From a virus, in IMG/VR virus record IMGVR_UViG_3300042907_000385, positions 1 to 22,895 of that record: DNA of 22,895 nt; one strand, given 5' to 3'. This document shows positions 5,953 through 21,593 of this stretch, piece by piece. The position numbers were made by a program, and so were the translations under genes. Position 1 is the stretch's first letter. Each line of letters begins with the position of its first letter. Below the pieces are notes generated by a model, which did no database searches, was not told where the DNA came from, and worked only from the letters and a program-made list of their open reading frames with translations.

Positions 5953-5968
5953 TTATATTGGAGTTTTT

Positions 5969-6631: not shown

Positions 6632-7602
6632 AAATTGCTTTCTATTTAAATAACCTTTCTTTTAGAGGAACTACAGTTGCCACTTTGGATTATGCATATT
6701 ATAATGAAAAGATTCTTGGTAATGAATCTATTATAATCTATCCAAATAAATTAATAAACGAAAATATCGATATTAACTTCTCAAAAAGATACGAAATTGC
6801 TGAAAAATGTAAATCTAATTTTCTTACCATTGCGTATGAAACTAATGAAGAAATCATATCCAAACTAGATGAATTGAATTGTCATCATGTCTACATGTTG
6901 AAAGCTGGATTTAGAGATGATGTTTGGTTTGAAGGAAAAACCAATTTAGTTCATGCTGTATTTGGTTGTTATGATCCACATGGAACTTATGCATATGTGT
7001 CTAAGTGGTTATCCGAATCTGTTTCTAATAATACGATTCCATATGTTCCTCATATCGTCAAACTACCTAAAGAACAGACAGAAAATTTTAGAGAGAAATA
7101 TAACATAACAAAAGATAAGATAGTAATTGGACGATATGGTGGGTTTGATCAATTTGATATTCAATTCGTTCATAATATCATTTCTTTTGTTGTTAGTAAT
7201 GATCCAAAATTTGTTTTTATGTTTGTCAATACTAGAAAGTTTATAGATCATCCGAATGTATTATTTTTGGATGCTATGATTGACTCTCAAGAGAAAACCA
7301 ATTTTATTTTATCATGTGATGCAATGATTCATGCCCGTAGTGATGGTGAATCTTTTGGTCTATCTATTGGTGAATTTTTATTCCACAACAAACCTGTATT
7401 TTCATTTGGCGGCGGCCGAGACAAAAATAATGTAGAACTTTTGCAAAAATATGGATTGATATTCAATAATGAATATGAATTGCTTGACAAAATCTTCAAA
7501 TTGAAGTATAATGGATACACTGAACAATTTTCAGAAATTGTTAAAATTTTCTCTCCAGAGAATGTGATGGAAAGATTTCATGAAATATTTTTAAGGAAAT
7601 GA
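6628..7602 (+). CDS. GT-B fold glycosyltransferase (GT4-like)
   Basis: A 324-residue protein with the layout of retaining GT-B enzymes. The N-terminal domain starts MKIAFYLNNLSFRGTTVATL, with a glycine/threonine-rich acceptor loop. The C-terminal nucleotide-sugar domain holds IVIGRYGGFDQFD, FMFVNT and the diagnostic HARSDGESFGLSIGEFL, in which E241 and E249 form the E-x7-E motif of GT4-type enzymes. This is followed by NKPVFSFGGGRD. The protein is predicted to be cytoplasmic and to transfer a sugar from an NDP donor to a glycan or protein acceptor. It is coupled on both sides (ATGA with the previous stop, overlap region with the acetyltransferase gene). Confidence 0.85.
   Translation: MKIAFYLNNLSFRGTTVATLDYAYYNEKILGNESIIIYPNKLINENIDINFSKRYEIAEKCKSNFLTIAYETNEEIISKLDELNCHHVYMLKAGFRDDVWFEGKTNLVHAVFGCYDPHGTYAYVSKWLSESVSNNTIPYVPHIVKLPKEQTENFREKYNITKDKIVIGRYGGFDQFDIQFVHNIISFVVSNDPKFVFMFVNTRKFIDHPNVLFLDAMIDSQEKTNFILSCDAMIHARSDGESFGLSIGEFLFHNKPVFSFGGGRDKNNVELLQKYGLIFNNEYELLDKIFKLKYNGYTEQFSEIVKIFSPENVMERFHEIFLRK
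7593..7597 (+). promoter_or_regulatory. Shine-Dalgarno site that selects the acetyltransferase start
   Basis: AAGGA lies one base before the ATG at 7599, which is too close to serve it, but seven bases before the in-frame ATG at 7605. This favours 7605 as the true start of the GNAT gene. Confidence 0.6.
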
Positions 7603-7604
7603 GC

Positions 7605-8084
7605 ATGCAAAATAATGTGGTTTTAAAAGAAGCAAAAACTTTGGAAGATTTCTTAGTTCTAAGAAACATCAGAAATGAATGTAGAGAATTTATGACAAGA
7701 GATATTTCATATATTTCAGAAGATCAACAAAAACAATGGTTTGAAAAAATTAAATCTAACCCAGATAACACATTTAAAATTTTCCTATTATATTTAATTG
7801 AAAATGGTGTGATTGCGAGTCCGATTGGATATGGTCTTATCAGACAAGAAGGAGACTTTTCTGTTGTATCCGGTGGATTAGTCGAGACATGTAGAGGAAA
7901 AGGATATGGGAATGTATTATTCGAATATTTAATTAAAAATATCGATGATAATACTTCTATTAAATTGGAAGTATTGAAGAAAAATACAAGAGCGTTTGTT
8001 ATCTATAATAAATTAGGTTTCCGTGTTATTAATGATGATGGTAAAATTATAACAATGGAATATAATAATAATTCACAAATGTAA
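7605..8084 (+). CDS. GNAT-family N-acetyltransferase
   Basis: A 159-residue protein of the GNAT acetyl-CoA-dependent acyltransferase fold. Motif A is seen as GGLVETCRGKGYGNVLFEYL, with the R97-x-x-G100-x-G102 pyrophosphate-binding loop. Motif B is the KKNTRAFVIYNKLGFR segment, typical of the end of the fold. The N-terminus (NVVLKEAKTLEDFLVLRNIRNECR) is a usual GNAT alpha1 region. It lies directly upstream of a DegT-type sugar aminotransferase; such pairs commonly make N-acylated amino sugars, so an NDP-amino-sugar N-acetyltransferase role is inferred. The start at 7605 is chosen for SD spacing; an in-frame ATG at 7599 would add two residues and overlap the previous stop. Confidence 0.88.
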   Translation: MQNNVVLKEAKTLEDFLVLRNIRNECREFMTRDISYISEDQQKQWFEKIKSNPDNTFKIFLLYLIENGVIASPIGYGLIRQEGDFSVVSGGLVETCRGKGYGNVLFEYLIKNIDDNTSIKLEVLKKNTRAFVIYNKLGFRVINDDGKIITMEYNNNSQM

Positions 8085-8106
8085 AATTCAACACATGGTA
8101 TAATAT

Positions 8107-9186
8107 ATGAAAAGAATTCCTCTTTTTAAAGTAAAAATGTCCGATACTGCAAAGGAAGCAGTATCAAAGGTATTAGAATCTGGTTTTATTGGACAGGGAT
8201 CAGTAGTAGAAGATTTTGAAGATGCACTTAAAATAGAGTTACGAAGTAAAACAAGACCCGTAACTGTCAACTCCTGCACATCTGCTATTGATTTAGCATT
8301 AGATTTATGTGGTGCAGAATTCGGAGATGAAATTATTTCTACTCCACAAACTTGTTTTGCTACTCAAGTAGGTGCTATCCATAGAGGTCTCAAAATTCGT
8401 TGGGCAGATATTGACCCTATTACTGGATTAATTAATCCTGAATCAGTCAAATCGTTGATTACAGAAAAGACCAAAGCCATTTTATGTGTAGATTGGGCTG
8501 GAAAGTTTTGTGATTTTGGTACTCTAAAATCTTTTGGTATTCCAGTTATCGAAGATGCTGCTCATGTTTGGGATGTGTTTAACGAAACACCATGTGAACG
8601 AGGGGATTATATTTGTTATAGTTTTCAAGCTATTAAATTTTTAACATCTTCTGATGGTGGACTTCTAATTTGTCCAGAAGATAAAGAAGAAAGTGCAAGA
8701 ATTCTTCGTTGGTATGGATTGGACAGAACTAAAAAGCAATCATTCCGTTGCACTCAAAATATTACGTCTGCTGGATATAAGTATCATATGAATGACGTAT
8801 GCGCTTCAATCGGACTCTCTAATATAAATTCAGCTAGAGAATCTGTAAACAAACATAGAGAAAACTCTAAACGAATAATCAACGAAGTTAATAATTCCAA
8901 ATTAATTTTGCCTGTTTGGGACGAAACTAATTCTTACTGGTTATTCAGTATGCATGTTTTAAATGGTCGCAAAGATGATTTTACAAAATATCTTGATGAA
9001 AGAGGTATTGAGTCTAGTCCCGTTCATTATAGGAATGATAAGTATGATTGTACTTTCAAATTTCAAGAAAACGATTTACCTGGAGTAAATTCATTTTCCG
9101 AAACACAAATTTGTATTCCTAATGGGTGGTGGTTATCTGAATCTGATATCAGTTACATCATACAAACTTTAAATAGTTATAATTGA
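8107..9186 (+). CDS. DegT/DnrJ/EryC1/StrS-type PLP sugar aminotransferase
   Basis: A 359-residue aspartate-aminotransferase-fold enzyme that would transfer an amino group to a keto group of an NDP-sugar. Family hallmarks are IPLF at the N-terminus, SGFIGQGSVVEDFE, VNSCTSAIDLALDL (phosphate-binding loop), PQTCFATQVGAI, VIEDAAHVW with D150 facing the PLP pyridine nitrogen, and YSFQAIKFLTSSDGG with K177 as the Schiff-base lysine. YKYHMNDVCASIGLSNI matches the usual C-terminal family motif. Length is typical, and catalytic residues are intact. It follows the acetyltransferase by 22 nt with no clear SD. Together with the SDR and methyltransferase downstream it suggests synthesis of a rare amino sugar. 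The exact ring position aminated cannot be told. Confidence 0.92.
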   Translation: MKRIPLFKVKMSDTAKEAVSKVLESGFIGQGSVVEDFEDALKIELRSKTRPVTVNSCTSAIDLALDLCGAEFGDEIISTPQTCFATQVGAIHRGLKIRWADIDPITGLINPESVKSLITEKTKAILCVDWAGKFCDFGTLKSFGIPVIEDAAHVWDVFNETPCERGDYICYSFQAIKFLTSSDGGLLICPEDKEESARILRWYGLDRTKKQSFRCTQNITSAGYKYHMNDVCASIGLSNINSARESVNKHRENSKRIINEVNNSKLILPVWDETNSYWLFSMHVLNGRKDDFTKYLDERGIESSPVHYRNDKYDCTFKFQENDLPGVNSFSETQICIPNGWWLSESDISYIIQTLNSYN

Positions 9187-9194
9187 GAAATGTA

Positions 9195-9905
9195 ATGCCA
9201 AGAATTTCTGTTTGTGTTCCTGTATATGAAATGAAAGATGGGTTTGGAGAAAGATTTCTTATTGAATTTTTTTCAAATTTAACAATTCAAACTTTTAAAG
9301 ATTTTGATGTAGTAGTATCGGATCAATGTGAATCTGATATATTAAAGAATGTTTGTGATATGTTTTCCAAAGTTCTTGATGTAAAATATTTCAAAAATAA
9401 AAGTAATATTAAAAATGCTGCTAATAATGTAAACAATGCCATTAATAATGCGACAGGTGAAATTATCAAGTTACTTTATATGGATGATTTTTTCGTTGAT
9501 GTTAATGCATTATATAAAATTTCTAATGCTTTCCAAGAAAATGATGGCAAGTGGTTAATAAATGGGTTTGTTCATTGTAACATGGATAAATCGAAATATT
9601 TTGATGCTAGAATTCCTTGGTATGGTAATAAGTATGTGAATGGTGATAATACTACAGGCAACCCATCTACTTATGCTGTAAGAAAGGAATGTTTATTGGA
9701 GATGGATGAAAATCTGTTGTGGATAGTAGATGGTGAATATTTTTATAGGTCTTTTTTTTATCATGGTGATCCGATTATCATTAATGATATATTAGTTTGT
9801 TTTAGGGAACATCAAGACTCTGCTTTTTTAGACCCAAAATTTAGAGAATTGGATACTAAAGAAAGACAATATTGTATTGATAAATTTAAAAACATTAAAA
9901 AATAA
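9195..9905 (+). CDS. Glycosyltransferase family 2
   Basis: A 236-residue GT-A enzyme. The N-terminus PRISVCVPVYEM has the classic VxVPxY strand, followed by FDVVVSDQCESD (nucleotide-binding strand), NAANNVNNAINNATGEIIKLLYMDDFF with a D97-D98 metal-binding motif, and FREHQDSAF near the end. The ATG at 9195 is preferred; an in-frame TTG at 9183 overlaps the previous stop and would add four residues. No membrane segments. It probably adds one sugar to the glycan made by this island; donor unknown. Confidence 0.87.
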   Translation: MPRISVCVPVYEMKDGFGERFLIEFFSNLTIQTFKDFDVVVSDQCESDILKNVCDMFSKVLDVKYFKNKSNIKNAANNVNNAINNATGEIIKLLYMDDFFVDVNALYKISNAFQENDGKWLINGFVHCNMDKSKYFDARIPWYGNKYVNGDNTTGNPSTYAVRKECLLEMDENLLWIVDGEYFYRSFFYHGDPIIINDILVCFREHQDSAFLDPKFRELDTKERQYCIDKFKNIKK

Positions 9906-9918
9906 TTGAATAATTTTT

Positions 9919-10812
9919 ATGAAAGATATTAATATTTTAATAATTGGTGGTAATGGATATGTTGGTTCATATCTGTCTGAACATCTAAAATCTAAACAAT
10001 ATAAGGTAGATGTTTATGGAAATAGAAATCAAGATTATAATATATTAACTAACGAGTTCCTGTCCATATATGAATATGTTATTTTATTAGCTGGACATTC
10101 TAGTGTTGCTTGTTGTAATGGTGAATTGAAATCTTCATGGAATAATAATGTAAGAAATTTTGCAAATCTTGTAGAAAAAACTAATCAAAATCAAAAAATA
10201 ATATATGCCAGTAGTGCCTCTGTATATGGTAATAAAGGGGGTAAAGTATTTAATGAAACGGACATGTCGTTAGAATATATTAATAATTATGATTTAACAA
10301 AATGTGCTCTGGATTTACTCGCTTTAGATTATATTAATAAAGGCAAAAAAATTATAGGATTAAGGTTTGGAACAGTAAATGGGTCATCTCCAGTTATAAG
10401 GCGAGATTTAATGATTAATTCTATGTTGTATTCCGCAATATTTAATAATATAATCAACATCAATAATAAAAATATATCAAGACCGATTTTATCAATAAAA
10501 GACCTAAGTAATGCTGTAGAACGTATAATCTTTTCTGAATTTTCTAGTGGAATATACAATCTGGCATCTTTTAATTCTAATGTGGATGAAATATCCAAAA
10601 GTGTTCAAAACAAAACTGGTGTTAAAATCATAGATCATGGGGATTTTGATGGAGTATATGATTTTATAATTGATACTACATTATTTAAACAAACGTTTAA
10701 TTTTACATTTCAAGACACCATGCAATCTATTATTGATGATGTTATTGAATGTTATAATGACAACCAGACCAAAATAGTAACAAGAAATACTTATTTCCAT
10801 TATGAAAACTAA
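9919..10812 (+). CDS. NAD-dependent epimerase/dehydratase (extended SDR)
   Basis: A 297-residue extended short-chain dehydrogenase/reductase acting on NDP-sugars. NILIIGGNGYVGSYL contains the GxxGxxG nucleotide-binding turn (G10, G13, G16). IIYASSASVYGN (94-105) carries the catalytic Ser/Thr position, and NYDLTKCALD gives the Y124-x3-K128 pair. ILSIKDLSNAVERI fits the family's conserved C-terminal segment. Length is near that of reductases and epimerases of deoxysugar pathways and shorter than 4,6-dehydratases. I infer a role in finishing the sugar (epimerisation or reduction of a keto group) next to the aminotransferase and C-methyltransferase. The last 11 nt overlap the next gene. The DNA here is especially AT-rich. 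Confidence 0.88.
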   Translation: MKDINILIIGGNGYVGSYLSEHLKSKQYKVDVYGNRNQDYNILTNEFLSIYEYVILLAGHSSVACCNGELKSSWNNNVRNFANLVEKTNQNQKIIYASSASVYGNKGGKVFNETDMSLEYINNYDLTKCALDLLALDYINKGKKIIGLRFGTVNGSSPVIRRDLMINSMLYSAIFNNIININNKNISRPILSIKDLSNAVERIIFSEFSSGIYNLASFNSNVDEISKSVQNKTGVKIIDHGDFDGVYDFIIDTTLFKQTFNFTFQDTMQSIIDDVIECYNDNQTKIVTRNTYFHYEN

Positions 10813-11527
10813 AATAGACTATGTAACAGTTATATTTAAAAATTATGATTTATTGGATATACAAAGAGAGTTATTAAAAACTTTTGTAGGTGAAGAAAAT
10901 TATAATTTTATAATTGTGGATAATACACCACCGAATGAAAAAAAAACAATACTCCCAAATGATAATGAAATACTTGTATTGAGAGATAGTATTAATGAAT
11001 TTGATGGAATATCACATGGGTCAGCATTAGACCTTGGGTTAAAATATGTAACCTCTGATATTGTTTGTTTGATGGATTCGGATTTCTTTATATTAAATAA
11101 CAACATACATGACTATGTATTAAATAAATTTAGTGAGGGTTATTTAGCTGTTGGTGCAGAATGGAATGATGGTGAAGCCACTATACCGGTAGTTAACACA
11201 TTTCCCGATAAATTTGATAATATACCATGTTGTTTTTGTGGATATTATGATGTTAATATTGCCACATCTAATTCTTGGGTAATAACCCCAAATGAAATTG
11301 ACAGATCAACTTCTTTTATAGAAGTAGGATGGAGAATAAGGAAATATATACTTGATAATAATATCAAAAGTATGCATTGGAAAACAAATTCTAGGGTTAA
11401 TAAGAATTGCGTTTTTAGAGACAACAATGATATTCTAATGGGTGTTCATTATGTTGCGGGATCACATAGAAGAATCGGTGATAACCCTAAAGAAAATATA
11501 TTAAACGAATTGAAGGGATATAAGTAA
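10802..11527 (+). CDS. Glycosyltransferase-like protein (GT-A)
   Basis: A 241-residue protein whose ATG lies inside the end of the SDR gene (11-nt overlap). IDYVTVIFKNYDLLDIQRELLKTF and YNFIIVDNTPPN give the first two strands of a GT2 fold. SALDLGLKYVTSDIVCLMDSDFFIL contains the D92-S93-D94 metal-binding motif in the usual context (A...G...T..D.V...D.D). The C-terminal part is unusual: a cysteine-containing PCCFCGYYDVN, and GVHYVAGSHRRIGD near the end. No membrane segment. Probably a cytoplasmic sugar transferase of the island; substrate unknown. Its stop overlaps the methyltransferase ATG by one base. Confidence 0.8.
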   Translation: MKTKIDYVTVIFKNYDLLDIQRELLKTFVGEENYNFIIVDNTPPNEKKTILPNDNEILVLRDSINEFDGISHGSALDLGLKYVTSDIVCLMDSDFFILNNNIHDYVLNKFSEGYLAVGAEWNDGEATIPVVNTFPDKFDNIPCCFCGYYDVNIATSNSWVITPNEIDRSTSFIEVGWRIRKYILDNNIKSMHWKTNSRVNKNCVFRDNNDILMGVHYVAGSHRRIGDNPKENILNELKGYK

Positions 11528-12714
11528 TGAGTTATAAGAAAATTGAAAAATGTTTATGTTGTGATAATGATGAATTGGATTTTGTTCTTGATTTAAACTC
11601 ACAACCACTAGCTAATAGTTATTTAAAAAATAAAGATGATGAAGAAGATGTATTTCCTTTGGGAATTAATTATTGCCCAAAATGTACTCATATACAATTG
11701 ACTCATGCTGTTGATCCAGATTTATTGTTTAAAGATTATCTATATGTCAGTGGAACAACAAAAACATTAAGAGATTATTTCGACTGGTTCTCTAGTTTCA
11801 CTAACAGTTATACAATTGGTCGTAAAGTTTTGGATATTGCTTGTAATGATGGTTCTCAACTAGATGCATTTACCAGAAGAAATATTGGGTTTAAAACATA
11901 TGGTATCGATCCAGCCGAAAACTTATTCGATATCAGTTCTAAAAATCATAATGTTATTTGTGATTATTTAACTGAAGAAAGTCTCAAAAAGTTTGATACA
12001 AAGTTTGATATAATCATAGCACAAAATGTGTTTGCCCATAACACATATCCTAAACAATTTTTAGAATTGTGTAAAACGGCTTTAAATGAATATGGTAGAA
12101 TTTTCATTCAAACTTCACAAGCAGATATGGTAAAAAATAATCAATTTGATACCATTTATCATGAACATATTTCTTTTTTTAGTGTAAAATCATTCTGCAC
12201 ATTAGCAAAGAATGCTGGGTTAAGTGTGATTGATGTTGTAAGAACTCCGATTCATGGAACAAGTTTTGTATTCGTTTTATCAAATTCTTTGGAGGATAAA
12301 TCTGAAAAGTTTATTGCAAGAGAAGATAACCTATCACAAGAAGTTATTGTTAGATATGTAGAAAATTGCAAAAGAATTTCCAATGAAACTTTTAATAAAA
12401 TATCAGAATTAAGAGAACTTGGATATAAAATCATTGGATATGGTGCTGCAGCTAAAGGTAATACTTTTTTAAATTTTTCTAAATTTCAACTAGATTATAT
12501 ACTCGACGATAATCCATTGAAACATAATATGTATAGTCCTGGAAGTAAAATTAAAATCGTACCACCTAATTATCTATTAAATGAAACTGGAAAAATTTGT
12601 ATTGTTCCTCTTGCGTGGAATTTCTTTGATGAGATAAAAGAAAAAGTATTATTAATGCGTGACGAAGATATTATATTCTTAAAATATTTTCCAGAGGTTG
12701 AAATTTCACAATGA
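11527..12714 (+). CDS. Zinc-type SAM-dependent C-methyltransferase (sugar methyltransferase)
   Basis: A 395-residue three-part methyltransferase of the type exemplified by TylC3/NovU/EvaC, which add methyl groups to carbon atoms of NDP-keto-deoxysugars. The N-terminal zinc-binding region has C9/C12 and C50/C53 with the SQPLANSYL segment between them. The Rossmann domain has VLDIACNDGSQLDAF (SAM motif I, D103-G109) and DIIIAQNVFAHN. A YHEHISFFSVKSF segment, typical of the family, precedes a C-terminal domain with GYGAAAKGNTFLNF (304-317) and YILDDNPLKHNMYSPG. All elements are intact and length is typical. It suggests that the final sugar is C-methyl branched. The stop overlaps the next gene (ATGA). 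Confidence 0.92.
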   Translation: MSYKKIEKCLCCDNDELDFVLDLNSQPLANSYLKNKDDEEDVFPLGINYCPKCTHIQLTHAVDPDLLFKDYLYVSGTTKTLRDYFDWFSSFTNSYTIGRKVLDIACNDGSQLDAFTRRNIGFKTYGIDPAENLFDISSKNHNVICDYLTEESLKKFDTKFDIIIAQNVFAHNTYPKQFLELCKTALNEYGRIFIQTSQADMVKNNQFDTIYHEHISFFSVKSFCTLAKNAGLSVIDVVRTPIHGTSFVFVLSNSLEDKSEKFIAREDNLSQEVIVRYVENCKRISNETFNKISELRELGYKIIGYGAAAKGNTFLNFSKFQLDYILDDNPLKHNMYSPGSKIKIVPPNYLLNETGKICIVPLAWNFFDEIKEKVLLMRDEDIIFLKYFPEVEISQ

Positions 12715-13481
12715 AAAAAACAGTAATATCCCACTTTTATAATGAAGAATATTTGTTACCTTGGTGGTTAAATCACCATAAACAAATATTCGATCAAGGA
12801 ATAATGATAAATTATGAATCCACTGATAATTCGGTAAATATCATCAAAGAAATATGTCCTGATTGGAAAATTATTCAATCAAAAAATGAATATTTTGGCG
12901 CCGAGGAAATAGACAAAGAAGTTTCTGAAATAGAAAAAGAAATAGAAGGATGGAAAATATGTCTTAATACTACAGAATTTATTATTGGGAATTTTTCAAT
13001 CCTAGAACATTCTCCAACGGAACATATTAATTTAGGTGGTAGAGCAACCAGAGTGACTACAGGATATGGAATTCCAGTGCATGTTATGATTGATAATGAT
13101 AGAGATAATCTACCAGTTTATGAAAAATCATTAATCGAACAAAAATACTATGGTATGCATTATAAAGAAGGTGGATTTAATTTAAGGTTTGGAAGGTTGA
13201 TACATAATTCTAATAACATAGAATATCCTATTGGAAGACACTTTGATTATACAACCGAAGAATTAGTCATTTTATGGTATGGGTGGTCTCCATTTAACAC
13301 CATGAGTAAACAGAGAAAATTACAAATACAACATAGAATGCCACAATCAGATAAAAATAGAGGGTTTGGAACAAGTCACCTCGTTAGTGATGATGTATTG
13401 GAAAATCAATATATAAAAGATTTTTTACCTAGATCGAGAGATTTAACTGAAGATTTAAAACTACTTATGGGGGAAAAGTGA
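12711..13481 (+). CDS. Glycosyltransferase-like protein with altered DxD
   Basis: A 256-residue protein with the start of glycosyltransferases that scan NEE..L..WL.HH: VISHFYNEEYLLPWWLNHHKQIFD, then GIMINYESTDNSVNIIKEI (where related enzymes have DN.STD). In most relatives the next conserved strand ends DxDEF; here it reads CLNTTEFIIG (N86-T87-T88-E89-F90), so both aspartates are replaced. It may be inactive, metal-independent, or of a subfamily in which this variant is normal; I have a vague memory of similar phage proteins. The C-terminal part has VILWYGWSPFN and basic KLQIQHRMP. It is coupled to the methyltransferase (ATGA) and to the next gene (GTGA). Confidence 0.78.
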   Translation: MKKTVISHFYNEEYLLPWWLNHHKQIFDQGIMINYESTDNSVNIIKEICPDWKIIQSKNEYFGAEEIDKEVSEIEKEIEGWKICLNTTEFIIGNFSILEHSPTEHINLGGRATRVTTGYGIPVHVMIDNDRDNLPVYEKSLIEQKYYGMHYKEGGFNLRFGRLIHNSNNIEYPIGRHFDYTTEELVILWYGWSPFNTMSKQRKLQIQHRMPQSDKNRGFGTSHLVSDDVLENQYIKDFLPRSRDLTEDLKLLMGEK

Positions 13482-14188
13482 ATAAAATTAATTATATTCC
13501 AGCGTTCTATATCGGAGAAAGAAAACACTCTGGTTATGCAAAAGAATTGCAAAATAATCAATTAATAATGGTTGAAAAACAAATAGAGGCTCTTAATAAG
13601 ACTGATATTCAATTTGTTACTTTTGCTTTTAATTTAGATGACATTACTATGTCACAAGAAATCGAAGAAAAAATCAAATCTTATAATATTAATTTTAATT
13701 ATGAATGTTATTTTAGACAAAATAAAGGGTGTAGTTATGGCGCTTGGAATGATGTAATAATTAAAAATTTAAATGATTTCGATTATTTTTTCATCATTGA
13801 AGATGACTTTATTCCAATAGTAAAGGACTTTTATGTTCCGTTTATTGAACGTTCAAGTTATGAGATTCCCTATGTTTGTGAATTTACTGATTCAGAATGG
13901 AAAGGTCTACCCCATGCTTCTATCCCGCATGGAATTATGCGATCAGATGCATGTAAATTCATATATGAAAAATATGGAAACATATTAAAGACCTACGAAC
14001 AAGATAATAGATTAGAAACTTTTTATAAAATTCAAATGGAATGTTATGAATATTTTATTAATGAAGGTTTTGGTATTACTGATATTTTAGATTCATACAG
14101 TGCTCCATTTATGTCTAGTCCGACAAGAACTGTAACAATCTTTGGTGATCCTAAAAATCCTGTATTACTCGATCCTATTATTTTGTAA
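13478..14188 (+). CDS. Glycosyltransferase-like protein, last gene of the glycan island
   Basis: A 236-residue protein starting at GTG 13478, which overlaps the preceding TGA; a G-rich run (13469-13473) lies just upstream as SD. INYIPAFYIGERKH opens the protein, and FRQNKGCSYGAWNDVII then FFIIEDDFIP (E108-D109-D110) form the donor-site region: R.N.G.SYGAW followed by an ExD-type metal motif is a pattern of GT-A fold enzymes. GIMRSDACKFIYEKYG and the C-terminal region lack motifs that I recognise. A cytoplasmic transferase acting in the island is inferred. It is followed by a 69-nt gap holding a late-promoter-like site, so this gene probably ends the transcription unit. Confidence 0.75.
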   Translation: MNKINYIPAFYIGERKHSGYAKELQNNQLIMVEKQIEALNKTDIQFVTFAFNLDDITMSQEIEEKIKSYNINFNYECYFRQNKGCSYGAWNDVIIKNLNDFDYFFIIEDDFIPIVKDFYVPFIERSSYEIPYVCEFTDSEWKGLPHASIPHGIMRSDACKFIYEKYGNILKTYEQDNRLETFYKIQMECYEYFINEGFGITDILDSYSAPFMSSPTRTVTIFGDPKNPVLLDPIIL

Positions 14189-14257: not shown

Positions 14258-15430
14258 ATGAAATCATTTGCAAATTTTTTAGTCGAAGAAACAGAAGATA
14301 CGAAACTTAAGCATATTCACCATGCAGAAGATAGACCTTTTTTACATGGTGCTGCTGGTTTTAGTCATGCAACAGGTGCTTTGGAACAAGCACATAATCA
14401 TATTTTAAGTGGTGGACATGGTTCATCGCTTACTATGAAATATGATGGTTCTCCCTCAATTATATTTGGTACGAACCCAGAAAACGGTAGATTTTTCGTA
14501 GCATCTAAATCTGCGTTTAATAAAACACCAAAAATCAACTATACACATGAAGATATTCTAAAGAATCACGGCCATGCACCTGGTTTGGTAGAAAAACTTC
14601 ATTCAGCATTAAATCATTTGCGTAAAGTGACACCTAAATCTGGTGTATACCAAGGTGATATGATGTTTTCTGGTGACGATAAAAAGGAATCCAAACGCGG
14701 TGTATCATTTACTCCTAATACTATCACCTATACTGCAAAGGGGGATATGGGAGAAAAAATCAGAAGAGCCAAGATGGGTGTAGTTGTTCACCAACAATAT
14801 CGTGGAGATCAACTCAATGATATGAAAGCAGACCCACATCCCGATGTGCATAATTTTGGACAACATCCTGATGTATGGCATCAATCTGCCGAACATGATA
14901 CGAGAAATTCTCATTATAGTTCAGAAGATCAAAAACAATTCCAAAAGCATATGGATGCTGCTAAACGATTACATAAAGAAAATGCTGCATTTATGTATTC
15001 TGCTACTGCTCCACATCATGGTGATGCCAATCATTTAGCGACATATATTAATGACACCGTTAGAACTGGTGATACACCATCTTCCGAAGGGTTAATGAAA
15101 CACATAAATGATAAGTATACTAAATCTGCAAGTAAGTTAAAAACTCCTGCTGCACAAAGCAGAAAGATGAATCAATCAAATGAACATTTGAATTATATCA
15201 AACAAAATAAAAAACATTACGATAACTTATTAAATATGCATGGTCATCTTCAAAGAGCCAAGAATGTTTTGGTTAATGTATTGAATCAACATAGTGGTGG
15301 ATTAGAACATGATATTGATGGTAAAAAAACAGACCCAGAAGGTTTTGTAGTTAATCATGCGGGACAACCAACTAAATTAGTTAACCGTGAAGAATTCAGT
15401 AAAGCAAACCTCCTAAAAGTAAGAAAATGA
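14258..15430 (+). CDS. Ligase-like nucleotidyltransferase with capsid-targeting-like N-terminus
   Basis: A 390-residue protein. SLTMKYDGSPSIIFG (58-72) has the KxDG motif I of covalent nucleotidyltransferases (ATP-dependent DNA/RNA ligases and capping enzymes), with K61 as candidate AMP-linked lysine. GVYQGDMMF (129-137) resembles motif III, EGFVVN (361-366) motif IV, and T-K-L-V with K373 motif V, all in the right order. I recall the histidine-rich family (HHAEDRPFLHG..GF.HA) from marine T4-like phages as uncharacterised. The first residues MKSFANFLVEE resemble the capsid-targeting sequence of T4 internal proteins, with LVE as possible prohead-protease site. The region 195-330 between motifs III and IV is long and helical. 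It overlaps the next gene by ATGA. Confidence 0.85.
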   Translation: MKSFANFLVEETEDTKLKHIHHAEDRPFLHGAAGFSHATGALEQAHNHILSGGHGSSLTMKYDGSPSIIFGTNPENGRFFVASKSAFNKTPKINYTHEDILKNHGHAPGLVEKLHSALNHLRKVTPKSGVYQGDMMFSGDDKKESKRGVSFTPNTITYTAKGDMGEKIRRAKMGVVVHQQYRGDQLNDMKADPHPDVHNFGQHPDVWHQSAEHDTRNSHYSSEDQKQFQKHMDAAKRLHKENAAFMYSATAPHHGDANHLATYINDTVRTGDTPSSEGLMKHINDKYTKSASKLKTPAAQSRKMNQSNEHLNYIKQNKKHYDNLLNMHGHLQRAKNVLVNVLNQHSGGLEHDIDGKKTDPEGFVVNHAGQPTKLVNREEFSKANLLKVRK

Positions 15431-18093
15431 AGAGATTCCTAGACGTTATTGCAGAAGAAGAAAAGAAGTCCAAGAAAGCAGTATTGGCTTTCGGACGCAT
15501 GAACCCACCAACCAGTGGCCATTTGAAATTGATCGATAGAGTTCGTCATGTTGCAGATAAAGAAGGTGCATCACACCATGTGGTAGTATCTCATTCTCAA
15601 GATAGTAAAAAGAATCCATTATCTGGTGAAGAAAAGATCAAACATCTTAAAAGATATTCACCAGGTACTCGTTTCTCTGCTTCTTCTAAAGAACACCCAA
15701 CTATTCTTCACCATGCTGCTAAGTTACATGCACAGGGACATGACCATTTGATTGTAGTTGCTGGTTCTGATCGTGTAAAGGAAATGCATGACCTTTTACA
15801 TAAGTATAATGGTAAAACAGCAGGTCATGGACATTATCATTTTAAGAAGATTGAAGTTCGTTCTGCTGGTCATCGTGACCCAGATGCAGAAGGAACAGAA
15901 GGTATGTCTGGCACTAAAATGAGACAACATGCTAAGAATAAGGATTTCTCTTCATTTAGACAGGGTGTACCACATCATGTTTCAGATGAACATACAAAAG
16001 AATTAATGCATGATGTTAGTCGTGGTATGGGACTTCATGAGGACGTTAATCACGGAGCATTCAAGGCAATCTTCGTAACAGGTGGTCCTGGTTCTGGTAA
16101 AGATATTATTATTCGTGAAGCGATTGCAGAAAAAAGAAGTGTAGAAATGAATTATACACAAGCACGATCTGTATTGAGTAATCTACACAAAACCAATGAT
16201 TTTAGAGTAGAATCTATTCATAATCGCACTCCATTAATTATCAATGGACCCGCAGAAGATTTAAATACTATTATCGGTATCAAAGAACATCTAGAATCCC
16301 TTGGATATTCTACTATGATGGTATTTGTTGACACTACTAATGAAGCAAGTCAAGAAAGAAATCAAAAGTTGTCTCGCATGATGGTAGAGTCAGTTAGACA
16401 AGAAAAATGGATACAGGCACAATCCAACAAAGAGATATTCAATACTCTATTCAACAACTTCATTTATTTTGATAATAGTGATAGTATCGAGTCCATAGAA
16501 GAAGATATTACAATAACTTACCAAAACATAAATAGTTTTTTGGACGAAGAAGTTGCCCAATACTTATCGTATGAATGGTTTAAGAACCGCAATAAATTGA
16601 ATTTTAATGAAATGTTTAATAAGAATTCTAAACGAATTCAGAAGTCAACAGTAGTTAAATATAATCCAGAATATAAGGCATCAGGACCAAACGATATCAC
16701 ACCAGATAATAGAGCCGGTGAATCACAAATAGATGATATTAAGTATGATGCGCCTAAGAGAACAAAAACTTATACTTTCAGAACATACAGTGAACAACAA
16801 CAACCTAAGATAAAGTTTACTGCTCCTCCAAAGGAAAGTAACTTCTCTAAGGATAATGATAAAGTTAAAAATAAAAAAAGATACTCGGACTCACCAACAG
16901 TTAATCAAAGAATGAGAAATACTAATGGTGTTGGTCCAGAATTTGATACTAGACAACAGGGTACGGTTTATCCAATGTCCGGTCTTGGTGATGTAACATA
17001 CAGAGAACAGACTGAATTTGTTAAATCTCTTCTGAAAAGAGTAAAAGAAGCCATTGATGATCCAGGCGCAGTAGATATGGGAGTTGGAGGAACTTTATGC
17101 GGATCGACTAATAAAGAACCTATGCAATCCTATAAAGATCAAGAAAGAAACATCGGTATAAAAATAACTAAGAAAGGTAAAAAAATGTTTAATAATAAAT
17201 TTACAAATAAAGACCCTGTTGCAGAAGAAATCAAAAAAATCATCGGAGAAAGATGGGACGATGATGAAGATGATGACGTTGCAAAAGCAGATAGAGAATT
17301 AGCAAGAATGAAAGTTAAACCTATCAAGGCTGATACTAAAACTGACCCAGACAAAGAAATGTCTAAGTTGGCAAAGAGAACTCCAAAGGAAGTTGACGAG
17401 GAAGTTGTCGTTGAAGAATCCCGAATTTCCGCGTTAGAATCTTTTTCGGATTCTAAATTAAGAAATTTTCCTGGGTCTAATAGGAATAGACCAATACCAT
17501 CAGAAAGAAAATGGACTGATGAAGAAAAACGAAAAAGATTTGATGATTGGGTAAAATCAGTTGCAGAAAGAAAAAAGAAAGAAATGAAGGAAAACTTTGC
17601 TGACGGGAGACACCCAGAAGATAAAGAAGATGTTGAACTTCAAGAAAAGACTCTTACTCCTGCTGAATCCAAGAAGAAAGAAGAAATTGTAAAGTCCATG
17701 AAAAAGGACAAGGAAGGATTCAAAGAAAGATATGGTAAGAAAGCAAAGTCAGTAATGTATGCAACCGCTACAAAACAAGCAAAGAAAGTTGCAGAAGAAG
17801 CAGAAGTCAATGAAGCAAAAGGACCAACTTCTACTTATGGGTTAGATACTTTTGCAACTAATGAAGAACCAGTAACCCCATTATCAAGAGCAAAAGAATT
17901 AGCTCGCACTGCAATGTCTCGTATTAAAAACGAAATGTTAGGTAAGGCTGGTGCAACTTCTGAAGAAATAGACCCTACTATCAAAAGTACTGATACATTA
18001 AAAGGTCGCATTAAAGGTGGTAAAGACGATGATGTTGGTCCTGCTGCAACTGGTCGTTCTACCAAAGTTAAATTTACTCCAGGCCCAAAATAA
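15427..18093 (+). CDS. NMNAT-like nucleotidyltransferase fused to P-loop kinase, long charged tail
   Basis: An 888-residue fusion. Residues 18-200 form a cytidylyltransferase/NMNAT-like domain: AVLAFGRMNPPTSGHLKLI holds the (T/H)xGH motif (T29-H32), and SGTKMR (161-166) corresponds to ISSTxxR; both are intact. Residues 213-375 form a P-loop kinase domain with Walker A GGPGSGKD (219-226) and an R-rich lid region (QERNQKLSRMM). This order, NMNAT then kinase, recalls NadR. About 500 further residues look disordered and rich in K, E and D, with an acidic run near 615 and a TLTPAESKKKEEIVKSMKK...YATATKQAKK module (743-787) that I recall from many marine T4-like phage proteins. The N-terminus MKRFLDVIAEEEKK resembles T4 capsid-targeting sequences (IAE site). 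It overlaps both neighbours. Confidence 0.87.
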   Translation: MKRFLDVIAEEEKKSKKAVLAFGRMNPPTSGHLKLIDRVRHVADKEGASHHVVVSHSQDSKKNPLSGEEKIKHLKRYSPGTRFSASSKEHPTILHHAAKLHAQGHDHLIVVAGSDRVKEMHDLLHKYNGKTAGHGHYHFKKIEVRSAGHRDPDAEGTEGMSGTKMRQHAKNKDFSSFRQGVPHHVSDEHTKELMHDVSRGMGLHEDVNHGAFKAIFVTGGPGSGKDIIIREAIAEKRSVEMNYTQARSVLSNLHKTNDFRVESIHNRTPLIINGPAEDLNTIIGIKEHLESLGYSTMMVFVDTTNEASQERNQKLSRMMVESVRQEKWIQAQSNKEIFNTLFNNFIYFDNSDSIESIEEDITITYQNINSFLDEEVAQYLSYEWFKNRNKLNFNEMFNKNSKRIQKSTVVKYNPEYKASGPNDITPDNRAGESQIDDIKYDAPKRTKTYTFRTYSEQQQPKIKFTAPPKESNFSKDNDKVKNKKRYSDSPTVNQRMRNTNGVGPEFDTRQQGTVYPMSGLGDVTYREQTEFVKSLLKRVKEAIDDPGAVDMGVGGTLCGSTNKEPMQSYKDQERNIGIKITKKGKKMFNNKFTNKDPVAEEIKKIIGERWDDDEDDDVAKADRELARMKVKPIKADTKTDPDKEMSKLAKRTPKEVDEEVVVEESRISALESFSDSKLRNFPGSNRNRPIPSERKWTDEEKRKRFDDWVKSVAERKKKEMKENFADGRHPEDKEDVELQEKTLTPAESKKKEEIVKSMKKDKEGFKERYGKKAKSVMYATATKQAKKVAEEAEVNEAKGPTSTYGLDTFATNEEPVTPLSRAKELARTAMSRIKNEMLGKAGATSEEIDPTIKSTDTLKGRIKGGKDDDVGPAATGRSTKVKFTPGPK

Positions 18094-19208
18094 TGGATAA
18101 GAAAGTAGAAAAATTAACTACTCTGATTAAAGGTAGGGTGAAGGAACGCCCTACCTTTGGTACAGACCCCAATGACCCTTGGTCTGCAAAAGCAGGGATT
18201 ACTGAATCTGGTACATTAGATTCATATCTAAAATCCAAAGGTATAGACCCTATGCGTGTGAGTCAACAAACCAAAATATCTCATGCAAAAAGTAGTACTT
18301 TTGCGAAGTGGAAACAAGATCGTAAGTTTTCTGAAGAAGTTGAACAGATTGACGAAGATGACCTTCTTAATAAGTATCTTAGAACCAAAGGGTTAAACCC
18401 CAAAACTGCAAGTAAGATATCTAAAATTGCTGCTTCTAAAACCGGTGATTTTAATAAATGGAAAAGAGACCATGTAAGCGGCGGTCGATTACCAGAACAA
18501 ATGTCTTTTAAACATTCTTCGGTTATGAGAAGACAGAAAATGTTAGATAAGGCATATAATAGATTAAAACCTATTCGTATTGCTGGTCCAGACCTTCATG
18601 GAGGTCATCATGGATTGAAAAATGAAGAAACTGATAAGAAAGATACAATAACAATGGATATTCCTTTGTTGATTCGTATACTTGAGTTGGTTCGTGAAGA
18701 TATAAAGACGGATGCTGATCTACATCGTGTAGTTGAAAAACTTATTGATATTCGCAATAAAGGTACTTTAACGATGGATGATTATGATACTGTTTCTAAT
18801 ATAAAAGAACAGTATGTTCCAGAAGATACATATCAAGATAGTTATGCTGCAACACAAACTACTGGACCAGAAATAACTAGCACTGATGATACTGAAAAAG
18901 AATCTGGTTATTATAAATCATCTAAAGCCGCTAATATGGTAAAGTCTCTTTTAAAAAAAAGAACTGTTAAAGAAGACTTATATGACCATGAAAAAGAAGA
19001 TAAGTCAGTAGAAAGTTATGGTAAGAAACCAAAAATTGATACAAGTCCTATTGACCCAAAATCCGCAGGTATTGTTTATGGTGGAAAGACACTAACTAAA
19101 CAACCAAGGGATACAATAGAACTTGACCCTATGATGAAGAAACCTGATGTTACGCCCGATTTCCAAAAGAAGGCCAATATTGATAAGAAATCAACAAACG
19201 ATAAATAG
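18093..19208 (+). CDS. Charged repeat-containing protein, probable virion or head-associated
   Basis: A 371-residue, lysine- and aspartate-rich protein; its ATG overlaps the previous stop by one base (TAATG). Residues 42-77 and 92-127 are two copies of a module (15 of 36 identical, no gaps, 50 residues apart) with L..YL..KG..P...S...KI...K...F.KWK.D. Between them lies EQIDED, an I-x-E site like those cut by T4 prohead protease. A helical TMDIPLLIRILELVREDIKTDADLH segment (212-236) is followed by a low-complexity tail. No enzyme motif is visible. I recall similar modules in T4-like cyanophages but no known function. The gene sits in the late-type block between the NMNAT fusion and the structural gene. 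Confidence 0.83.
   Translation: MDKKVEKLTTLIKGRVKERPTFGTDPNDPWSAKAGITESGTLDSYLKSKGIDPMRVSQQTKISHAKSSTFAKWKQDRKFSEEVEQIDEDDLLNKYLRTKGLNPKTASKISKIAASKTGDFNKWKRDHVSGGRLPEQMSFKHSSVMRRQKMLDKAYNRLKPIRIAGPDLHGGHHGLKNEETDKKDTITMDIPLLIRILELVREDIKTDADLHRVVEKLIDIRNKGTLTMDDYDTVSNIKEQYVPEDTYQDSYAATQTTGPEITSTDDTEKESGYYKSSKAANMVKSLLKKRTVKEDLYDHEKEDKSVESYGKKPKIDTSPIDPKSAGIVYGGKTLTKQPRDTIELDPMMKKPDVTPDFQKKANIDKKSTNDK
18216..18473 (+). repeat. Tandem 36-residue protein repeat within the 18093 gene
   Basis: Codons 42-77 (18216-18323) and 92-127 (18366-18473) encode related modules with shared L, YL, KG, P, S, KI, K, F, KWK and D positions, spaced by exactly 50 codons. At DNA level the copies have diverged, so this is an old duplication. 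Confidence 0.8.
19201..19207 (+). promoter_or_regulatory. Late-promoter-like ATAAATA before structural gene
   Basis: CGATAAATAG lies 45 nt before the ATG at 19246, overlapping the end of the upstream gene, with a strong AAGGAG SD at 19233-19238. It differs from the T4 word by one base. The same 8-mer ATAAATAG also occurs inside genes (5293, 16528), so the evidence is mainly positional. Confidence 0.4.
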
Positions 19209-19245
19209 ATAGATAAACTTATAAGTTTTTTTAAGGAGAAATAAA

Positions 19246-19830
19246 ATGCCATCTTGGGGTAATACCGATTCAATTTATGATAAGCCACACTGGCCTTATG
19301 AAAGACAAGTTCGCCCATTCGCAACATTAGTTACTGCTGGTGCAGTAACTACGGGTAATACTATTATATTCGCTGGTACTAATTCATTAACCGCAGCTAA
19401 TATAGGTATTGTTGCTGGTATGAGTGGGTATGCAGCAAACCTTTCCATTTCTGGTGAAAATGAATTCTTTGCTTCTAATAATACTGTTGTTTCTGTAACT
19501 GGAAACAGTGTAATATTCAGAGCTAACGTTTTTGGAACCATTGCATCTGGAACTTCTATTGATTTCGGAATCCCTATCCGTTACAATGAAGACGGTGCAA
19601 ATACTTACTTTGCTGATACTGTTATAGTATCTAATGGACGTTTAGCTAATACTGTTGGTTTTGCTAATACTGCTACTGCACATAAAGGTTGGGTTCGTGT
19701 AAGAACTGGTACTGGTGGTCGCGCTGGTCGTGTTCAAGTAGAGACTCTTGTTGCTCTTAGTAATGTTGTTACTTCTAATACATTATCAGGTAACACCAGT
19801 AATTCTACTGTTTACTACTCTGGTCTGTAA
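19246..19830 (+). CDS. Probable virion structural protein
   Basis: A 194-residue, low-charge, beta-rich protein starting MPSWGNTDSIYDKPHWPYE and made of G/N/T/S/V-rich stretches (TTGNTIIFAGTNSL, NNTVVSVTGNSVIF, IDFGIPIRYNED), ending with WVRVRTGTGGRAGRVQVETLVAL. The M-P-x-W-G-N/K-T-D start and this composition recall a widespread structural protein of marine T4-like phages, which I cannot verify here. It has the strongest SD in the window (AAGGAG, 8 nt from ATG), a late-promoter-like site upstream and an intrinsic terminator downstream, all as expected for an abundantly made late virion protein. It lacks the capsid-targeting-like N-terminus of its neighbours. Confidence 0.8.
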   Translation: MPSWGNTDSIYDKPHWPYERQVRPFATLVTAGAVTTGNTIIFAGTNSLTAANIGIVAGMSGYAANLSISGENEFFASNNTVVSVTGNSVIFRANVFGTIASGTSIDFGIPIRYNEDGANTYFADTVIVSNGRLANTVGFANTATAHKGWVRVRTGTGGRAGRVQVETLVALSNVVTSNTLSGNTSNSTVYYSGL

Positions 19831-19835
19831 TTATT

Positions 19836-19857
19836 GGGGGATTTATCCCCCTTTATT
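19836..19857 (+). terminator. Rho-independent terminator after the structural gene
   Basis: GGGGGA (19836-19841), loop TTTA, TCCCCC (19846-19851) forms a perfect 6-bp GC-rich stem followed by TTTATT, only 5 nt after the stop codon. The T-run is short and interrupted. It stands out in AT-rich surroundings. Confidence 0.75.
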
Positions 19858-19862
19858 AAATT

Positions 19863-20246
19863 ATGCAAAATTTAACTGATGATAATTTCCTGATATATGC
19901 AATGAAGTGTTATAATTCGCCTCATTGCATTATGTCAGAATTTGAAGGTGATATTAAAAGAACTAAATATTTGAAAAGGTTATTTCGCAAATACAAAATA
20001 ACCAAAAAGTTAAAAGAAAGACTAATTTTAAATCATATTATTTTATTAAATAATGTTTTTGGACCTGTTGCAACATCAAGAATATTATTTTATAAAACCG
20101 ACGAAAGAGATTATGATATTCTAAAGACATTCTTAGAATATCTCGATATCATGCCTGATGAAGTTGTGGGTATCAGAGGACGCAATATTCATACTTCAGA
20201 TATTCCTTTAGAACCTAATATTGTAGAGATATTAATAAACATATGA
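19863..20246 (+). CDS. Conserved-looking hypothetical protein
   Basis: A 127-residue protein starting MQNLTDDNFLIYAMKCYNSP, with a very basic helix (KRTKYLKRLFRKYKITKKLKERL) then LILNHIILLNNVFGPVATSRILFYK and a C-terminal acidic part. The pattern (LTDDNFL.YA...Y..P..., D.KR.KY.KRL...Y, LKERL.LNH...L.N.FG) matches small proteins that I remember as common but uncharacterised in T4-like marine phages. No membrane segment, signal or enzyme motif. It starts 11 nt after the terminator stem with no clear SD, and its stop overlaps the next gene (ATGA). Confidence 0.8.
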   Translation: MQNLTDDNFLIYAMKCYNSPHCIMSEFEGDIKRTKYLKRLFRKYKITKKLKERLILNHIILLNNVFGPVATSRILFYKTDERDYDILKTFLEYLDIMPDEVVGIRGRNIHTSDIPLEPNIVEILINI

Positions 20247-20869
20247 AAACATTTACAAAATTTAGAGAATCCTTAGAATCTAAAAATCCTAAAGAATATG
20301 ATTACGAAGGTGAAATGGCCAAGAATGACATGGAAGTAATTACCATGCATTGTAAACATGTCACTGATATGTTAGATGATACAACTAATCTTCCAGAATG
20401 GGTTCAAAGTAAAATAACTTTAGCTAAAGACTATATGTCAACAGTATGTGATTACTTACATTCTAATTTAGATGAAGAAACTAAAGAACCAACAGGTGAT
20501 CTTAAAAAGGCATGTTGGAAAGGTTATACTGCCATCGGTATGAAAAAGAAAGGTGGTAAAATGGTTCCTAATTGTGTTCCAGAAGAAACTCAATTAGATG
20601 AAAAATCTGCTGCATGGCAACGTAAAGAAGGCAAGAACCCAGAAGGTGGGCTCAATAAGAAGGGTATTGCATCTTATCGTAGAGAGAACCCAGGTTCTAA
20701 GTTAAGTATGGCAGTAACTACACCTCCTTCTAAGTTAAAGAAGGATAGTAAGGCTGCAAATCGTAGAAAGTCATTTTGTGCAAGAATGGGTGGTATGCCT
20801 GGTCCTATGAAGGATGAAAAGGGTAGACCAACTAGAAAGGCATTATCACTGAGAAAGTGGAATTGTTAA
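20243..20869 (+). CDS. Modular small protein with capsid-targeting-like N-terminus
   Basis: A 208-residue protein with three visible modules. Residues 17-75 (YDYEGEMAKNDMEV...LPEWVQSKITLAKDYM) form a helical module with a WVQSKIT..KDY pattern. Residues 87-113 (LKKACWKGYTAIGMKKKGG, then KMVPNCVP) form a short two-cysteine module (C91, C111). Residues 121-208 (KSAAWQRKEGKNPEGGLNKK, SYRRENPGSKLS, KSFCARMGGMPGP, then RKWNC) form a basic module. All three I recall from marine T4-like phage proteins of unknown function. The second and third modules are separated by QLDEK (L118-D-E120), a prohead-protease-like L-x-E site. The start MKTFTKFRESLES partly matches T4 internal-protein N-termini. It is coupled by ATGA upstream and TAATG downstream. 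Confidence 0.82.
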   Translation: MKTFTKFRESLESKNPKEYDYEGEMAKNDMEVITMHCKHVTDMLDDTTNLPEWVQSKITLAKDYMSTVCDYLHSNLDEETKEPTGDLKKACWKGYTAIGMKKKGGKMVPNCVPEETQLDEKSAAWQRKEGKNPEGGLNKKGIASYRRENPGSKLSMAVTTPPSKLKKDSKAANRRKSFCARMGGMPGPMKDEKGRPTRKALSLRKWNC

Positions 20870-21063
20870 TGAAGACATTCAAACAGTTTATAAATGAAGA
20901 TGGAATGGGTGGGGGAGCAATTGCCTCTGCCGGACCAAGTAATGTAGTTGGTAGTGGTGCAATTGCTGGTAGCGGGGGCGCAGGTGGTGAGCCAGGTGTT
21001 CACCTTCCTAGAAAAAAGAAAAGTCCTGTTATGGGGACAATGTATAAAAGAAAAAGTTATTGA
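20869..21063 (+). CDS. Small Gly/Ala-rich protein with capsid-targeting-like N-terminus
   Basis: A 64-residue protein; the ATG at 20869 overlaps the previous TAA (TAATG). In-frame codons from 20857 lie inside the previous gene. MKTFKQFINEDGM closely matches the N-terminal capsid-targeting sequence of T4 internal proteins (MKTYQEFIAEA), with INE as possible processing site. The remainder is a Gly/Ala/Ser-rich stretch (GGGAIASAGPSNVVGSGAIA) followed by GEPGVHLPRKKKSPV and a basic end (KRKSY). After cleavage it would leave a basic peptide of about 55 residues, as expected of a DNA-associated head peptide. Similar small proteins are, to my memory, widespread in marine T4-like phages without known function. 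Confidence 0.8.
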   Translation: MKTFKQFINEDGMGGGAIASAGPSNVVGSGAIAGSGGAGGEPGVHLPRKKKSPVMGTMYKRKSY

Positions 21064-21076
21064 AAAGCAATTTTCA
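21061..21076. terminator. Small symmetrical hairpin between convergent genes
   Basis: TGAAAA-GCAA-TTTTCA is a perfect 6-bp stem with a GNRA tetraloop. Its left arm starts with the TGA of the plus-strand gene, and its right arm ends with TCA, the stop of the minus-strand lipoprotein gene. It may act as a weak two-way terminator; the stem has only one GC pair. Confidence 0.35.
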
Positions 21077-21322
21077 CTGAGTTGACTCGATAGTAACTTC
21101 TAAGTCAGAGATATACCCTTTAATTAGGGTATCTCGCTTTAACAATTTATCAATTTGTTCTTGATTCAAACAAGAAACATCACTACTAGAAATTTTTGGT
21201 ATTTCTGGTTTGACTGGTTTCTTTATTGGAACAGAAACGTATACTATTCTTTCTTTAATTGTTGGTTGTATAGTACATCCACTAATCATCAAACACGTTA
21301 GTATCATCACTAGTTTTTTCAT
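21074..21322 (-). CDS. Rz1-like outer-membrane lipoprotein (o-spanin candidate)
   Basis: An 82-residue protein with a lipoprotein signal peptide: MKKLVMILTCLMISGC, lipobox ISGC with C16 as the lipidated residue. The mature 67 residues start with a proline/lysine-rich stretch (PIKKPVKPEIPK) and end in a short helix. A small proline-rich lipoprotein next to a holin gene is the usual form of an Rz1-type spanin subunit, which joins an inner-membrane partner to disrupt the outer membrane at lysis. The gene starts 41 nt inside the holin-like gene in another frame. No clear Rz-type partner (N-terminal membrane segment plus coiled coil) is seen, unless the 21689 product or a gene outside the window serves. 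This implies a Gram-negative host. Confidence 0.72.
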   Translation of the reverse strand: MKKLVMILTCLMISGCTIQPTIKERIVYVSVPIKKPVKPEIPKISSSDVSCLNQEQIDKLLKRDTLIKGYISDLEVTIESTQ

Positions 21323-21593
21323 CTTTTTTCTTCTCTTTTGATTTTTTCACTGCCACTTCAGTCTTTTTAGTCTGTTCCTTTTCTACTATTTTGGCAATAT
21401 CATCTGGAGTAAGTGCATTACCTTTTTCTGCAAATACACTAATTAAACCAGATAATGTTATACCTAGTGTTACAATGGCTTCTTTCTGGTTGGCATCAAT
21501 AACTAAACCGAAAGCAGTTGCTAACCATACAAACCCACGCCATGTGCTTGGTTCTTTTAATTTTTCTACGATGTAACCTAATGTCTTATTCAT
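21282..21593 (-). CDS. Holin-like membrane protein
   Basis: A 103-residue protein with two short hydrophobic segments (about 18-32, WRGFVWLATAFGLVI, and 39-54, AIVTLGITLSGLISVF) joined by a tight DANQKE turn, and a highly charged, lysine-rich C-terminal tail ending TNVFDD. KEPSTWRG ahead of the first segment followed by a two-helix hairpin with small residues and a charged tail is typical of small phage holins, which form the inner-membrane hole that triggers lysis. SD is CCTT/AAGG at 21601-21604, 7 nt from the ATG, and a TATAAATA site lies upstream. The stop lies within the lipoprotein gene. No endolysin gene is seen in the window. Confidence 0.72.
   Translation of the reverse strand: MNKTLGYIVEKLKEPSTWRGFVWLATAFGLVIDANQKEAIVTLGITLSGLISVFAEKGNALTPDDIAKIVEKEQTKKTEVAVKKSKEKKKDEKTSDDTNVFDD

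Follow-up and report, generated by a model that had tools for sequence, protein, structure and literature searches.

A block of phage genes, including two predicted enzymes, whose products begin with a probable T4-type capsid-targeting sequence

T-even phages are known to attach a short N-terminal capsid-targeting sequence (CTS) to diverse proteins (PMC3012670, PMC9026906), and the T4 proteins that carry it are known to be injected (PMC9026906, PMC9391042). Mutagenesis of the T4 internal protein IPIII assigned residues 4 and 7 of this sequence to targeting and residues 8 and 10 to processing (PMC9026906). We studied a similar N-terminus in IMG/VR virus record IMGVR_UViG_3300042907_000385, of which the stretch analyzed (hereafter the window) is a 22.9 kb fragment of 22,895 nucleotides with 28 open reading frames (ORFs). 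Reading the N-termini of the ORFs that begin at 14258, 15427, 20243, and 20869, by which positions we also name their products, gave MKSFANFLVEE, MKRFLDVIAEEE, MKTFTKFRESLES, and MKTFKQFINEDG, respectively, at the coordinates and with the MK-x-F start that an earlier note on this DNA had reported. The ORF at 20869 starts with ATG, and the earliest possible start of the enclosing ORF is a GTG at 20857. The exact CTS register (aromatic residue at 4, hydrophobic at 7, L or I at 8, and E at 10) was present in 14258, 15427, and 20869, and the aliphatic-x-E sites that the earlier note had pointed out in these three (LVE, IAE, and INE) each place the glutamate at residue 10. All four proteins, which belong to unrelated families, carry F4 together with F7 or V7, the targeting residues. 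We consider it highly likely that the shared N-terminus is a T4-type CTS, with the docking, cutting, and cargo that we describe below, and we are just as confident in counting three or more of these proteins as CTS proteins.

The strict form of the motif, MKx[FY]xx(hydrophobic)[LIVM]xE, occurred in three of the 28 window ORFs, whereas the frequencies of N-terminal residues predict 0.0034 (binomial P about 6e-9). A DNA version of the tag matched within the window at 14258 and 20869 only, and in none of 100 shuffles. Across nine T4-like genomes including T4, the strict pattern was found at 22 of 2809 N-terminal methionines compared to 1 of 7000 internal ones (Fisher P 1.8e-11), a count in which homologous proteins recur and the occurrences are not fully independent. 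Scanning T4 itself (150 of 169 kb) yielded exactly IPII, IPIII, and gp61.1, indicating that the pattern is calibrated. The loose MK-x-F start was rejected as evidence because it is common and does not discriminate: MKx[FY] follows six near-N-terminal methionines in the window, including that of the RecA/UvsX-like ORF at 148 (MKLF), so the statement in the earlier note that no replication protein starts in this way does not hold for the loose form. When the seven largest relatives (96-170 kb) were scanned, the strict matches all fell in the homologous block except for one ORF of 77 aa, which lies where T4 has its core protein gp68, two genes upstream of gp21. Small ORFs between the portal gene and gp21, at this same position, have the starts MKSFKEFISE (G014:C1:7015-7248), MKLFSNFRQQ (G001:C1:101936-102166), and MKTFDEFKTS (G011:C1:62790-63077), which are possibly core proteins with a full or partial tag.

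The check proposed in the earlier note was whether the tag is conserved more than the residues that follow it. This is the case in DUF6267, the family of 14258: among 34 representatives of 79 homologues (mean identity 73%), F4, F/Y7, L/I8, and E10 were each present in 34 of 34, while positions 2, 3, 5, 6, 9, and 14-17 varied, K2 being found in only 11. In the nucleotidyltransferase family of 15427, K2, F4, and E10 were each present in all 29 representatives and variability within the N-terminus was highest at residues 11-15; an alignment of 27 sequences down to 30% identity kept M1, K2, F4, and E10 invariant, and 80 of 80 homologues of the nucleotidyltransferase from cyanophage S-SM1 start with MKxFxAFLxEA. 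Among 11 representatives of the 20869 family, F4 and F/Y7 were found in all and E10 in nine. Homologues of the DUF6321 protein (20243) mostly bear full tags; starts in this family include MKTFKHFVES, MKGFKQFVNE, MLKFKDFILE, MITFKQFINE, and similar ones. Synonymous codons differ at most of the fixed residues (the E10 codon of the nucleotidyltransferase is always GAA), so selection acts mainly on the protein.

The phage from which the window derives is T4-like and has many relatives of freshwater type, which suggests fresh water as its habitat. Megablast of the region against isolate phages returned no match, and we therefore relied on protein searches. Homologues of 14258, either near-identical or 64-79% identical, occur in many IMG/VR contigs, and the relatives among isolates are T4-like cyanophages, Methylophilales phage Melnitz, pelagiphage HTVC008M, and phage C48C1. 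Of 15 related contigs, themselves fragments, 11 encode a gp21-type (S77) protease (PF03420). Scanning IMG/VR with a 32-base DNA version of the tag revealed at least 120 matching stretches, and 115 of the 121 matches listed lay at ORF starts; the scan sampled the collection unevenly, and the counts are lower bounds. A control pattern with scrambled order gave 11 matches in the whole of IMG/VR, mostly on very short ORFs. With the tag removed, the tagged proteins formed at least 32 groups that are non-homologous by BLAST (L307-L424), most of them without a Pfam match, and a Pfam search with 20 tagged environmental proteins identified few. Cargo among the matches listed comprised nucleotidyltransferase, DUF6321, DUF6267, GNAT acetyltransferase, DUF192, and, as a weak match, RNA 2'-phosphotransferase.

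Homologues of 15427 have been detected by mass spectrometry (MS) in the virions of four cyanophages, namely S-SM1 (T4-GC190; PMC3037559), S-SCSM1 (ORF91; PMC9602691), S-CREM2 (ORF154; PMC10665884), and S-SZBM1 (S-SZBM1_140; PMC9146016). The first three start with a perfect CTS (MKKFSAFLNEA, MKSFLQFLKEA, and MKNFSSFLTEA, respectively), and S-SZBM1_140 starts MRFRQFIIEA, with the same spacing one residue earlier. A blind scan of S-CREM2 (175 kb) for the strict pattern returned two matches, the nucleotidyltransferase and an S-adenosylmethionine (SAM) hydrolase, both of which are in its virion proteome as non-structural proteins. The hydrolase (ORF6; L303:3837-5081) starts MKDFDSFLEE, again a perfect CTS, and a packaged SAM-depleting enzyme would fit counter-restriction. 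The scan of S-SM1 gave a single match, which was detected in virions, and that of S-SCSM1 (229 kb) gave two, of which the nucleotidyltransferase is marked as a virion protein. With about a quarter or less of the proteins detected per phage, the chance estimate for this agreement between scans and virion lists is roughly 0.003. Other genes of the block are represented as well: S-SCSM1 ORF89-93, 95, and 97 are marked as virion proteins, and ORFs 155, 156, and 160 of S-CREM2 are in its proteome, ORF160 having a short match to the DUF6321 protein. T4-GC15, MS-detected in S-SM1, was considered as a DUF6267 protein and rejected, as it is annotated as a tail protein and hence lends DUF6267 no MS support.

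We then turned to the two large tagged proteins. A PDB sequence search provided no useful relative for DUF6267 or 15427, and structure searches were needed. 15427 is a predicted adenylyltransferase-kinase in which the tag is followed by a PPAT/NMNAT-class nucleotidyltransferase domain (about 15-205), a P-loop kinase-like domain (about 208-384), and a long charged tail. Fold searches matched the nucleotidyltransferase to PPAT (Z 14.4) and NMNAT (Z 13.1), and the P-loop kinase-like domain scored Z about 12.9. The nucleotidyltransferase fold is of Rossmann type, its HxGH-like and (S/T)xxxxR-like motifs are GRMNPPTSGH and GMSGTKMR with invariant cores, and the first residues of the protein are modeled, with low confidence, as a short helix. 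NCBIfam added only a generic cytidyltransferase domain.

DUF6267 is a Pfam family without an assigned function, with members in 470 phage records. The AlphaFold model of 14258 has a pLDDT of 88, with residues 1-15 below 50, which would fit a flexible, detachable leader. Searching with this model by VIA-align, the top 50 entries were all RNA or DNA ligases (Z 9.4 to 6.5), headed by a Naegleria RNA ligase (Z 9.4 over 185 residues at 4.0 A); for T4 Rnl2, Z was 8.4. In 67 sequences, K61, D63, G64, E361, G362, V364, and K373 were invariant, corresponding to KxDG (motif I), EGxV, and a downstream lysine of the covalent nucleotidyltransferase/polynucleotide ligase superfamily. The Foldseek result was weak when taken on its own (best E 0.014), and the ligase assignment therefore rests on the motifs and VIA-align together; with moderate Z values as support rather than proof, DUF6267 is predicted to be an RNA-ligase-like nucleotidyltransferase. 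The predicted fold has a long helical insertion ahead of the EGxV motif. In two genomes, DUF6267 appears as a 148-aa N-terminal ORF (G012:C1:63661-64107 and G013:C1:117090-117536), possibly owing to an intron or homing-endonuclease insertion or to a frameshift.

In the mechanism we propose, the 10-residue tag probably forms a short amphipathic helix in which F4, F/V7, and L/I8 share one face, and it would dock the protein into the prohead core. A gp21-type protease would then cut after E10 and release the mature protein into the head, where the cargo, including the 15427 and 14258 enzymes, would stay with the packaged DNA and probably enter the cell alongside it. The earlier note had proposed that this block encodes proteins packaged in the head and injected. 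We find this proposal largely supported: the register, the conservation, the spread of the tag over unrelated proteins, the protease in relatives, and the MS-detected tagged homologues argue for the CTS on which it is built, and from them we infer docking, packaging, cleavage, and injection in the window phage; cutting at E10 seems likely to us, and injection plausible on balance.

A number of observations weigh against this account. 20243 (MKTFTKFRES) has R8, E9, and S10 and lacks an [LI]xE in register. The DUF6267 proteins of S-SM1, S-SZBM1, and Syn1 have no tag, indicating that it is not universal in the family. gp21 is not in the window fragment, and the other strict match of S-SCSM1, ORF30 (106 aa), is not marked as a virion protein. 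Our searches turned up no MS detection of a DUF6267 protein; the literature searched likewise contained no mapped new N-termini for any member of the Kyanoviridae and did not establish that T4 gp61.1 is part of the virion.

In the main alternative, proteins with the tag would help to build the head as prohead core or structural internal proteins, in the manner of gp67, gp68, or gp22, and would be largely cut up or expelled and not delivered to the host as enzymes. The small size and low complexity of several products (20869, the 15427 tail, and 18093) would suit such a role, as would the CTS-like protein that adjoins gp21 at the gp68 position. However, the folds and motifs of 15427 and 14258 are conserved and of catalytic type, S-CREM2 tags a SAM hydrolase too, and the CTS proteins of T4 are injected. 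We regard this alternative as unlikely for the tagged proteins in general, and some of them may be core components and not injected cargo. The common start could instead reflect shared 5'-end ancestry or a constraint on translation initiation, with no packaging role: a portable 5' module would likewise spread to unrelated genes, and ATGAAA starts are generally common. Yet synonymous codons vary at most fixed residues and neighboring residues change freely, position 8 and E10 are distant from the start codon, matches to the scrambled control are few, and tagged homologues are in virions, leaving this explanation very improbable. Chance resemblance has in its favor that the loose MK-x-F is common, but for the strict form it is refuted by the rarity in the window and the conservation in homologues; we give chance next to no weight, and it may apply only to 20243 considered by itself.

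If the shared N-terminus is indeed a CTS, it may be, and we offer this only tentatively, a portable delivery address across aquatic T4-like phages from which delivered proteins can be read from sequence, here a ligase-like enzyme and an adenylyltransferase-kinase. These two could then act on RNA, of either the host or the phage, or on cofactors at the very onset of infection, ahead of phage gene expression. Since proteins co-injected with the DNA act before defense or host-takeover genes are expressed, the cargo list points to early counter-defense and metabolic functions. Cytidylyltransferase/NMNAT-like enzymes are recurrent in cyanophage virions with no stated entry mechanism, and the tag would supply one. 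It would also make virion cargo predictable, as illustrated by S-CREM2 and S-SM1, whose strict matches were all detected in virions, and it flags DUF6267 as a probable packaged ligase-like enzyme. The open-access literature searched describes no CTS in cyanophages and does not link one to their virion NMNAT. Three elements of this account therefore look unreported: that a conserved gene block of Kyanoviridae-like phages places the tag on predicted enzymes, that DUF6267 is predicted to be ligase-like, and that T4 gp61.1 may be an internal protein.

Table 1. The tagged block and its members in the window.
Feature	Position	Strand	Evidence
DUF6267 (PF19782), 390 aa, CTS-like tag, predicted RNA-ligase-like nucleotidyltransferase	14258..15430	+	Pfam 6.5e-99
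CTS-like segment MKSFANFLVE, predicted cut after E10	14258..14287	+	T4 IPIII register F4, F7, L8, E10
888-aa nucleotidyltransferase and kinase-like protein with CTS-like tag	15427..18093	+	Pfam CTP_transf_like; phrog_3041/395
CTS-like segment MKRFLDVIAE, predicted cut after E10	15427..15456	+	M1, K2, F4, E10 invariant
371-aa protein in block, without CTS	18093..19208	+	N-terminus MDKKVEKLTT; no family match (Pfam, PHROG, NCBIfam)
WGxTD-type protein, without CTS	19246..19830	+	Start motif and gene order only
DUF7207 protein, without CTS	19863..20246	+	Pfam 9.8e-34
DUF6321 protein (domain at C-terminal end), partial CTS MKTFTKFRES	20243..20869	+	Pfam 8.7e-24
64-aa Gly/Ala-rich protein, CTS MKTFKQFINE, resembles T4 gp61.1	20869..21063	+	

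Two of the untagged members of the block (Table 1) have counterparts by position in cyanophages. The position of the 19246 protein, for which BLAST at E 0.01 gave no match, corresponds to that of an 'S-layer domain' gene of S-SM1 and of S-SCSM1 ORF95, which is among the virion proteins mentioned above, and homologues of the DUF7207 protein (S-SCSM1 ORF96 and S-CREM2 ORF159) occupy the equivalent position. Directly after the block, a spanin/lysis cassette is suggested by two small overlapping ORFs on the minus strand (window 21074-21593), of which one begins like a lipoprotein (MKKLVMILTCLMISGC). An island of glycosyltransferase and sugar-modification genes (window 5239-14188) separates the helicase region from the tagged block, and the S-SCSM1 genome carries a gene set of comparable kind at another location.

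Compared to known systems, the window proteins share with T4 IPII and IPIII (MKTYQEFIAEA) and IPI the aromatic residue at 4, the hydrophobic residue at 7, [LI]8, and E10, as well as the presence of one tag on unrelated proteins, and a gp21-type protease family is common to T4 and the relatives of the window. The cargo of T4 internal proteins is small, not known to be enzymatic, and encoded near gene e and tRNAs, whereas here a conserved block includes large predicted enzymes, and position 4 is F and not Y. IPI (MKTFKEFTSTTT), a known CTS protein without a cut site in register, is a precedent for 20243. T4 gp61.1 (L110:18966-19130), of 54 aa, combines a perfect CTS, MKTFKEFIKED, with a basic stretch and is encoded between gp61 and gp41, a neighborhood like that of the block in cyanophages; its alignment with 20869 past the tag is suggestive only, and its sequence makes it a candidate for an overlooked internal protein. 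T4 Alt is an enzyme that is packaged in the head, trimmed by gp21, and injected. Its leader is MELITE, cleaved after ITE-6 (PMC5694885), so the earlier note, which had ascribed the MKTYQEFIAEA form to the T4 internal proteins and Alt alike, was correct for IPII and IPIII but not for Alt (start MELITELFDED). The accessible parts of the published accounts of the virion NMNAT/cytidylyltransferases of S-SM1, S-SCSM1, S-CREM2, and S-SZBM1 do not mention a targeting sequence. These enzymes are homologous to 15427, three with the same tag and one with a tag a residue shorter, and the window protein differs from them in adding a kinase-like domain and a long tail.

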